A DNA stretch of 64,000 bases, taken from assembly GCA_903945495.1 (NCBI GenBank), contig CAJAVU010000045.1, positions 1 to 64,000 of the forward strand, read 5' to 3'. Source of the stretch: an uncultured Flavobacteriales bacterium (GTDB taxonomy: Bacteria; Bacteroidota; Bacteroidia; Flavobacteriales_D; Crocinitomicaceae). Shown here piece after piece: positions 46,499 through 48,193 of this stretch; positions within the stretch are counted from its first letter, which is position 1, and each line of letters begins with the position of its first letter. The position numbers and the translations under genes are program-made. Below the pieces are notes generated by a model that saw nothing but the letters and a program-made list of their open reading frames with translations, did not search any database and had not been told where the DNA came from.

Positions 46499-46580
46499 TG
46501 CGGATGGAGGGACTCGAACCCGCATACCTCTCGGCACTAGATCCTAAGTCTAGCGTGTCTACCAATTTCACCACATCCGC
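46499..46580 (-). tRNA. tRNA-Leu (anticodon UAG)
   Basis: Read on the minus strand the gene starts GCGGATGTGGTGAAATTGGT and closes with CATCCGC plus discriminator A. The acceptor stem is a full 7 bp. The anticodon loop CTTAGGA is held by CTAGA/TCTAG and contains TAG. A long variable arm (GTGCCGAGAGGTATGC region) marks a class II tRNA, and GGTTCGAGTCC is the T arm. CCA is not encoded. It would read CUN Leu codons. Confidence 0.96.
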
Positions 46581-46670: not shown

Positions 46671-46779
46671 TTGTTTTATTTTAAACTGTGAAATAATGCG
46701 AAAAAAATATTTGGGTCGAAAAGCATTTTTTTGTGGAAAAGTCTTCGTTTCTTTTCTCCATTTCCTTTCAAATTCAAAT

Positions 46780-46787
46780 TACCTTTG
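46780..46787 (+). promoter_or_regulatory. Promoter -7 element of the flavin reductase-like gene
   Basis: TACCTTTG followed by C matches TAnnTTTGC, 18 bases upstream of the ATG at 46806; it lies inside a longer open frame and decides the start. Confidence 0.55.
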
Positions 46788-46805
46788 CAAAAAGTCTTTA
46801 AGAAC

Positions 46806-47702
46806 ATGTTGAGTATCGACCCAAAATCATTACCAATTCCAAAACTCCACCAGTATTTACTTGGAGCGATTGGTCCTCGTCCGATTGCATTTGCATCTAC
46901 GATTGACGCTGAAGGGAATCACAATTTAGCACCTTTCAGTTTTTTCAATGTATTCAGTGCGAATCCACCGATTTTGATTTTTTCTCCTGCGCGTTCAGGC
47001 AGATCAAACACAACGAAAGACACGTATAACAACGTTAAAATTGTTCCTGAAGTAGTCATCAATGTGGTGAATTATGACATTGTTCATCAAATGAGTTTAG
47101 CAAGTTCACCATATGCTCCAGGCACAAGTGAGTTTGTGAAAGCAGGCTTTACTCCTCTTGCTTCAGAGAAAATCAAACCAATGCGCGTTGCAGAATCACC
47201 TGTTCAGTTTGAATGTAAAGTGAATGAAGTAATTGAATTGGGAACTGAAGGAGGCGCTGGAAACTTGATTATTTGTGAAGTTGTTCAGATTCACATCAAC
47301 GAAGCGATTTTGGATGAAAACGGAATGATTGATCAGCACAAGATTGATTTGGTTTCACGAATGGGTGGAAACTGGTATTGCCGTGCTGATGAAAAATCGA
47401 TGTTTGAAATCGCGAAACCAATTACAACATGTGGAATCGGTTATGATCAACTTCCTGCCGACATTAAAAGCAGTAGCGTATTGACTGGTAACGACTTAGG
47501 TCAATTAGGCGGAATTGAAGAATTGCCAAATGAAACAGATGTAAATGAGTTTAAGCTCTTGGAATTAAGCGAAATCTTTGTATCTTTAGAAGACAATCCT
47601 GCTGAATTGGAATTGGCTTTACACCATAAGGCGAAAGAATTATTAGCAGAAAACAAACTGGAAGAAGCGTGGATGACACTTCTTTCTTTTAATAATGGAT
47701 AA
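46806..47702 (+). CDS. Flavin reductase-like FMN-binding protein
   Basis: The 298-residue protein has the flavin reductase split-barrel opening YLLGAIGPRPIAFASTIDAE, then NLAPFSFFNVFSANPPILIF and the Arg-rich turn SPARSGRSNTTKDTYNN for phosphate contact. The C-terminal 90 residues form a helical extension not found in the smallest family members. Such proteins bind FMN; the electron acceptor here is unknown. An in-frame upstream ATG at 46731 lies before the promoter and is rejected. Confidence 0.85.
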   Translation: MLSIDPKSLPIPKLHQYLLGAIGPRPIAFASTIDAEGNHNLAPFSFFNVFSANPPILIFSPARSGRSNTTKDTYNNVKIVPEVVINVVNYDIVHQMSLASSPYAPGTSEFVKAGFTPLASEKIKPMRVAESPVQFECKVNEVIELGTEGGAGNLIICEVVQIHINEAILDENGMIDQHKIDLVSRMGGNWYCRADEKSMFEIAKPITTCGIGYDQLPADIKSSSVLTGNDLGQLGGIEELPNETDVNEFKLLELSEIFVSLEDNPAELELALHHKAKELLAENKLEEAWMTLLSFNNG

Positions 47703-47736: not shown

Positions 47737-48135
47737 ATGTTTAAATTAACCGGAACCGTTAAGGTATTGAACAATACAGTTCAAGTGTCAGAGAAATTTT
47801 CTAAAAGAGAATTCGTTGTAACAGATACATCAAGTATGTATCCTCAAGATATTATGTTCCAAGCAACACAAGATAAATGTTCAATGCTAGATGCAGTTCA
47901 AACTGGCGAGCAAGTTGAAGTATCGTTTAACTTACGTGGTCGTGAGTGGACAAGTCCGCAAGGTGAAGTGAAATACTTCAATACATTAGAAGCATGGAGA
48001 ATTGAGAAAGTTGGTGCTGCTGCTCCACAAGGAATGCCACAAGGCGGACCATCTGCAATGAACTTAGATCCAATGGCTGCTGCTCCATCAGCTGCGGTTA
48101 ACGTTGACAGTGAAGACGACGATTTACCTTTCTAA
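47737..48135 (+). CDS. DUF3127 family protein with SSB-like C-terminal tip
   Basis: The 132-residue protein has an OB-fold-like core (about 1-95) with FKLTGTVKVLNNTVQVSEKF, SKREFVVTD and FNTLEAWRIEK, the DUF3127 signature. A Gly/Ala/Pro/Gln-rich linker follows, and the chain ends DSEDDDLPF. The end matches the canonical acidic tip of single-stranded DNA-binding proteins (DDDIPF), which docks DNA repair and replication enzymes. I infer an SSB-related ssDNA-binding role. It lies 34 bases after the flavin reductase gene and is followed by a terminator. Confidence 0.85.
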   Translation: MFKLTGTVKVLNNTVQVSEKFSKREFVVTDTSSMYPQDIMFQATQDKCSMLDAVQTGEQVEVSFNLRGREWTSPQGEVKYFNTLEAWRIEKVGAAAPQGMPQGGPSAMNLDPMAAAPSAAVNVDSEDDDLPF

Positions 48136-48154
48136 TTCGAATGAAAAAATAATG

Positions 48155-48186
48155 AAAGAGCCGAGCAATAATGTTCGGCTTTTTTG
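48155..48186 (+). terminator. Intrinsic terminator of the DUF3127 gene
   Basis: AGCCGA and TCGGCT form a 6-bp stem, extended by a G-T pair, around a 10-base loop, followed by six T before the convergent ABC transporter gene. Confidence 0.85.
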
Positions 48187-48193
48187 TTGAGCC

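Follow-up and report, generated by a model that had tools for sequence, protein, structure and literature searches.

A DUF3127 protein of Bacteroidota joins a predicted SSB-type OB core to a conserved acidic Pro-Phe tip and is a candidate second single-stranded DNA-binding protein

The window, which is the whole 64,000-nucleotide stretch of the Flavobacteriales contig that was analyzed, encodes a DUF3127 protein whose features are listed in Table 1. The PF11325 model matches residues 4 to 90 above its gathering score (E = 1.4e-26; 92.9 bits, cut-off 27), and the protein ends in ...NVDSEDDDLPF. A preliminary description of the window had reported a DUF3127 ORF with a DDDLPF end at this place, exact in its coordinates, and the length of 132 amino acids and the family match bear it out. 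Its account of the linker as rich in Gly, Pro, and Gln holds in part: the tail, KVGAAAPQGMPQGGPSAMNLDPMAAAPSAAVNVDSEDDDLPF, is predicted to be disordered and is Pro-rich, but Ala and Pro exceed Gly and Gln. The best named relative of the protein is 91% identical, and the closest relatives come from metagenome genomes, many of them titled Flavobacteriales or Crocinitomicaceae. In 74 of 80 named relatives a flavin reductase homolog precedes the DUF3127 gene in the same orientation (for one of the other six the upstream sequence is 217 bp long), and the two genes are therefore perhaps co-transcribed. The conserved neighbor marks a settled host locus, as opposed to a prophage remnant. Between the trigger factor and flavin reductase genes, a tRNA gene was found by Rfam on the minus strand (46499-46580).

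Table 1 Features of the DUF3127 locus within the window
Feature	Position	Strand	Basis or remark
Flavin-reductase-domain gene (PF01613)	46731..47702	+	34 bp 5' of the DUF3127 gene
DUF3127 (PF11325) gene	47737..48135	+	132 aa plus stop; ORF list and Pfam
Predicted OB core, residues 1-92	47737..48012	+	AlphaFold2, Foldseek, VIA
Trp71 codon	47947..47949	+	Pairs with the conserved Trp in the 'RSW' strand of SSB; aromatic in 146/148 copies
Disordered Ala/Pro/Gly-rich linker, residues 93-125	48013..48111	+	Low pLDDT, without secondary structure, variable in the alignment
Acidic tip EDDDLPF, residues 126-132	48112..48132	+	P131/F132 invariant in 148/148 aligned copies
Terminator-like hairpin and T-run, 3' of the DUF3127 stop	48150..48189	+	Consensus match only

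An AlphaFold2 model built with 84 sequences (model m7164b723e1b7) predicts a confident core followed by a disordered tail. Mean pLDDT is 91 to 95 in every ten-residue block from residue 1 to 90, and the predicted order of elements is strand-strand-strand-helix-strand-strand, with strands at residues 2-11, 22-30, and 37-44, a helix at 45-53, and strands at 59-72 and 78-91. When this model was compared with the PDB by Foldseek, 48 of the best 50 rows were bacterial SSBs, many of them chains of the same PDB entries, and the other two were one PriB and one subunit of an RNA-editing complex; the best E-value was 2.8e-6. VIA gave Z-scores of 11 to 12 for SSB, PriB, yeast Rim1, and human mitochondrial SSB, with SSB and PriB (Z about 12) equal in fold score. 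The core is thus predicted to be an SSB-type OB fold, and the structural comparison that had been proposed for the OB-fold-like core came out on the side of SSB, together with the profile comparisons.

Profile alignment of DUF3127 with the Bacteroidota SSBs by hhalign covered residues 54-94 when the tip was left out (E = 2e-7), and gave an E-value of 3.1e-9 with the tip; an unrelated family used as control gave 0.55. In the tip-less alignment Trp71 falls opposite the Trp of the 'RSW' strand in SSB. The aromatics with which E. coli SSB stacks on ssDNA are Trp40, Trp54, Phe60, and Trp88; the placement residue by residue covers Trp71. DUF3127 copies themselves keep aromatics at positions 35, 71, 80, 81, and 87 in 146 to 148 of 148 cases. 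A DUF3127 core profile without the tip was also searched against 75 SSB entries (one paralog being present in triplicate) and, from the named loci, 1312 stop-to-stop frames. With the HMMER filters off, tail-trimmed SSBs made up 38 of the 40 best matches other than DUF3127, and the better of the two control hits ranked fifth (E = 0.0046, to be taken as a rank, as are all E-values from searches as small as these); with the filters on, four SSBs and that one control passed. PF00436 gave no match to the window protein at E up to 10 with filters on, and a search of the whole genome with the same model found five places, none of them at the window DUF3127 gene, which is why the protein is not filed as a classical SSB. 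By these sequence comparisons the core is judged distantly homologous to SSB, and DUF3127 is probably a distant sister of the classical SSB family. The core is less basic than its counterpart: the mean charge is +0.3 for DUF3127 and −2 for the window protein, compared with about +1.7 for SSB cores.

The conservation of the tip was assessed in a phylum-wide set that is not biased toward it, because the PF11325 model ends before the linker and tail. Searching 296 Bacteroidota genomes with this model gave 176 matches in 171 genomes, of which 174 were assessable after a duplicate row of a frameshifted gene (G077) and a gene cut by a contig end (G257) were left out. A Pro-Phe end, usually preceded by an acidic run, is present in 170 of the 174 copies. 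The four exceptions belong to a single family, f12, and account for all four of its genomes (G006, G011, G016, and G001): they end in VDDE (L438), VDDD (L440 and L443), and EDEA (L444), and so retain the acidic run. In the one f12 genome whose canonical SSB was read, G006, that protein (L258) ends in DDDLPF. Some Pro-Phe ends are only weakly acidic, such as the AQDQPF of the second copy in G045 (L454). The preliminary description had let its reading hang on whether the tip is conserved across the family, and outside family f12 it is.

In an alignment of 148 copies, no column other than P131 and F132 is invariant, and within the core the most constant single residues are Arg69 (145 copies), Trp87 (143), Tyr35 (142), and Lys23 (142). 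As controls we took 1239 other ORFs of at least 100 amino acids from the same loci, and applied an acidic test defined as a Pro-Phe end with at least three acidic residues among the preceding seven. One control ends in Pro-Phe and none passes the acidic test, compared with 148/148 and 124/148 of the DUF3127 copies. The Pro-Phe tip of DUF3127 is far above chance. Position −3 is relaxed, with 93 Leu, 25 Cys, 16 Val, and 14 other residues among the 148. The end is found in 79 of 80 named near relatives. Among the viral loci, 80 in number, the protein ends in PF in 70 and in PW in 2, has PF within six residues of the end in 4, has another end in 3, and is truncated in 1; both of these sets lean to similar sequences because they were drawn with the window protein or its close relatives. 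In the exception among the near relatives (L369, 5680-5710, from a Flavobacterium metagenome genome), TGG follows DLPF where the relatives have a stop, which adds seven residues.

DUF3127 coexists with a canonical, tip-bearing SSB in the window's genome, and PF00436 SSBs are present in 293 of the 296 phylum genomes. When one high-scoring SSB was taken from each of 71 genomes, the window's own included, all 71 ended in PF, 65 in DDLPF, and 70 had Leu at −3, the position that is relaxed in DUF3127. The window's genome encodes four further SSB-like paralogs, none of which ends in PF, so that an SSB fold does not by itself entail a Pro-Phe tip in this genome. Three short SSB-fold genes without an acidic tip (L115 to L117) lie within a stretch of about 1.5 kb on contig C21, at about 396.5-398 kb, and a 135-amino acid ORF separates the second from the third. 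The idea that DUF3127 replaces a second SSB paralog was dropped, as many genomes of the window's class have both; outside that class, many DUF3127-negative families show two SSB matches when inspected by eye.

DUF3127 was found in 72 of 73 genomes of the window's family, order, and class, its own genome included, and in 99 of 223 outside them, as counted from the listing. It is absent from 125 of the 296 phylum genomes, among them part of genus g49, and would thus be dispensable in some lineages. A search by full profile for divergent DUF3127 in 33 of the 125 negative genomes found none; its 18 weak matches fell on SSB genes (14) and in long ORFs of 669 to 791 amino acids (4). Plasmid copies are rare (2 of 72,556 records), and both are annotated as 'DUF3127 domain-containing protein'.

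The identified chromosomal neighbors outside g49 are mostly genes of metabolism and translation rather than of DNA repair (flavin reductase, Aat, acetyl-CoA synthetase, ETF, and, by eye, AlaS). A RecQ cluster, whose representative has RQC and HRDC domains, lies directly upstream of DUF3127 in 8 of 146 loci. In 16 of 146 the gene directly downstream belongs to a DEDDh exonuclease cluster (L409-L412 and related loci), and both adjacencies are confined in this sample to genus g49. Operon context was therefore rejected as a general functional clue. Of the partners named in the preliminary description, the window's genome encodes RecO, PriA, and RecQ, but exonuclease I of the E. coli type was not found there, and the earlier partner list is corrected on this point; among 14 controls, E. 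coli alone has one.

A tblastn search (E up to 0.01) found 118 phage records that encode DUF3127. Over its full length the window protein matches phrog_4932 (E = 3.5e-33), with residues 3-132 aligned to positions 2-117 of the 117 in the model; this PHROG is described as 'single strand DNA binding protein', and several RefSeq phage records annotate their DUF3127 protein in the same words, one of them citing PF11325. Either tblastn, with the window protein as query, or the PHROG model picked out the members of this group, among them proteins of Flavobacterium phages mumin/mymlan and Fpv5 and Tenacibaculum phage Gundel_1; the main text of the Mumin phage paper contains none of four SSB terms looked for. 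Context was analyzed in 75 of the 80 viral loci, with one representative identified per neighbor cluster. Exonuclease clusters, with a PHROG exonuclease and YqaJ as representatives, lie directly upstream in 41 of the 75 loci, and a primase/helicase cluster lies within three genes downstream in 32, in 25 of them directly. This context suits a phage SSB. The phage genes are thus often found in recombination or replication modules, whereas the window copy is chromosomal and sits in a conserved host locus. In 40 of the 75 loci the second or third gene upstream belongs to the commonest viral neighbor cluster, phrog_21613 (L033 328-885), which has no known function; from its place in the exonuclease module, our guess would be an annealing or recombination protein. 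A quick tree of 120 columns, its viral sample having been selected by similarity to the window protein, scatters the viral sequences over several places, with 11 label changes, at least three of them forced by starred branches.

Compared with bacterial SSBs such as E. coli SSB and Bacillus subtilis SsbA (PF00436), DUF3127 is alike in its predicted SSB-type OB core, its disordered linker, its acidic Pro-Phe tip, and the distant homology of its core, and differs in lacking a PF00436 match, in its less basic core, and in the relaxed −3 position. The partners of E. coli SSB are described as dependent on its C-terminal tip, with binding weakened by deletion of the Phe or change of the Pro (PMC10164576). 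Precedents for the recognition of such proteins exist in phyla other than Bacteroidota: Anabaena All4779 and Staphylococcus aureus SaSsbC, 'hypothetical' and 'SSB-like' proteins, are reported to have been found to bind ssDNA (PMC3976300; PMC5945547), and are likened to DUF3127 as precedents only. A phage protein with a DUF3127 domain has also been reported as an SSB, gp25 of Pantoea phage AAS23, with PRK09010 and DUF3127 domains (PMC8004638). Unlike the window copy, it belongs to a phage of a proteobacterium, and its assignment was made by database and HHpred only.

The fold, the distant homology to SSB, the tip, the coexistence with a canonical SSB, and the phage context were computed, and from them we infer ssDNA binding, partner docking, and a pathway as follows. 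The divergent SSB-type OB core would bind single-stranded nucleic acid, most likely ssDNA, while the flexible linker would present the SSB-style acidic tip. The tip would dock into the pockets that receive the tip of canonical SSB, in RecO, PriA, RecQ, RecG-like partners, and possibly a DEDDh exonuclease. In Bacteroidota cells DUF3127 would serve as a second, housekeeping SSB alongside the product of the canonical ssb gene, presumably in recombination or gap repair rather than in bulk replication, and the phages that carry it in their recombination and replication modules would gain access through the tip to the host's partners. We give a probability of roughly 0.7 to the reading in which the OB core binds ssDNA while a true SSB-type tip, carried on the flexible tail, is offered to the repair proteins of the host, so that DUF3127 is a second SSB-like protein in cells and a lure for the host machinery in phages. 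The SSB-like hub of the preliminary description is supported in part: in its fold, in its tip, and in the presence of RecO, PriA, and RecQ in the genome, with recQ or a DEDDh exonuclease gene beside DUF3127 in one genus, but not in exonuclease I as a partner, in the composition of the linker, or in the tip of family f12. A broader proposal is more tentative, with somewhat less than an even chance: much of Bacteroidota may possess two tip-bearing ssDNA hubs, SSB and DUF3127, that share the RecO, PriA, and RecQ pockets and divide the work, for example between forks and recombination or gap repair, and phages may carry the second hub so as to steer the host's repair proteins toward phage ssDNA.

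Carriage by phages, and the lineages that do without DUF3127, would also fit a specialized SSB for incoming or phage and plasmid ssDNA rather than a general repair hub, like the SsbB of naturally transformable Firmicutes; a second SSB of this kind is described in Streptococcus pneumoniae (PMC3128108). We consider this unlikely, given that DUF3127 is nearly universal in one class and that its chromosomal locus is stable in near relatives. A tip more conserved than any core residue, on a core less basic than that of SSB, could instead belong to an SSB-derived OB protein that has lost ssDNA binding and holds or regulates SSB partners through its tip, as an adaptor or decoy. The retention of the five aromatic positions speaks against such a loss, as do the frequent placement of phage copies within DNA-processing gene modules and the PHROGs assignment to ssDNA-binding proteins, and we regard it as improbable. 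Least probable, by a small margin, is a PriB-like role in the primosome, in which an SSB-derived dimer of OB folds would work with PriA at replication restart: PriB is among the best VIA matches, PriA is encoded in the window's genome, and a laboratory PriB-SSBc chimera is reported to stimulate PriA more than PriB does, but natural PriB, which shares the SSB-like OB fold, is described in the same paper as having no SSB C-terminal tail (PMC8509808), as against the Pro-Phe tip of DUF3127, SSB ties with PriB in fold score, and the phage neighbors are exonucleases as well as primase/helicases.

The SSB label is already known for the phage members; the novelty lies in the cellular members and in how strictly the tip is kept. 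In the open-access literature searched, DUF3127 was mentioned in a phage context only, PF11325 was not mentioned, and no experimental work on any DUF3127 protein was found; no paper on a second SSB in Bacteroidetes was found among the matches listed. If DUF3127 is a second SSB-like protein, 171 of the 296 Bacteroidota genomes sampled would have a second SSB in this family, and the picture of replication restart and recombination would change for the phylum, which abounds in the human gut and in the sea. The phage DUF3127 family would then be explained by the use of host partners. Family f12, with DUF3127 proteins lacking Pro-Phe and, in G006, an SSB that keeps the tip, offers a natural test of the tip's role.

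The window's genome has a second DUF3127 copy (L003) on contig C67, at 258-611 on the minus strand, which ends in EEDILPF and which a quick tree places in the other large clade from the window copy. On this 5.6-kb contig, as judged by eye from the sequence, the gene lies beside a DRGHLAPA-type nuclease and a regulator of the sigma-54 type whose N-terminal half is RtcR-like.
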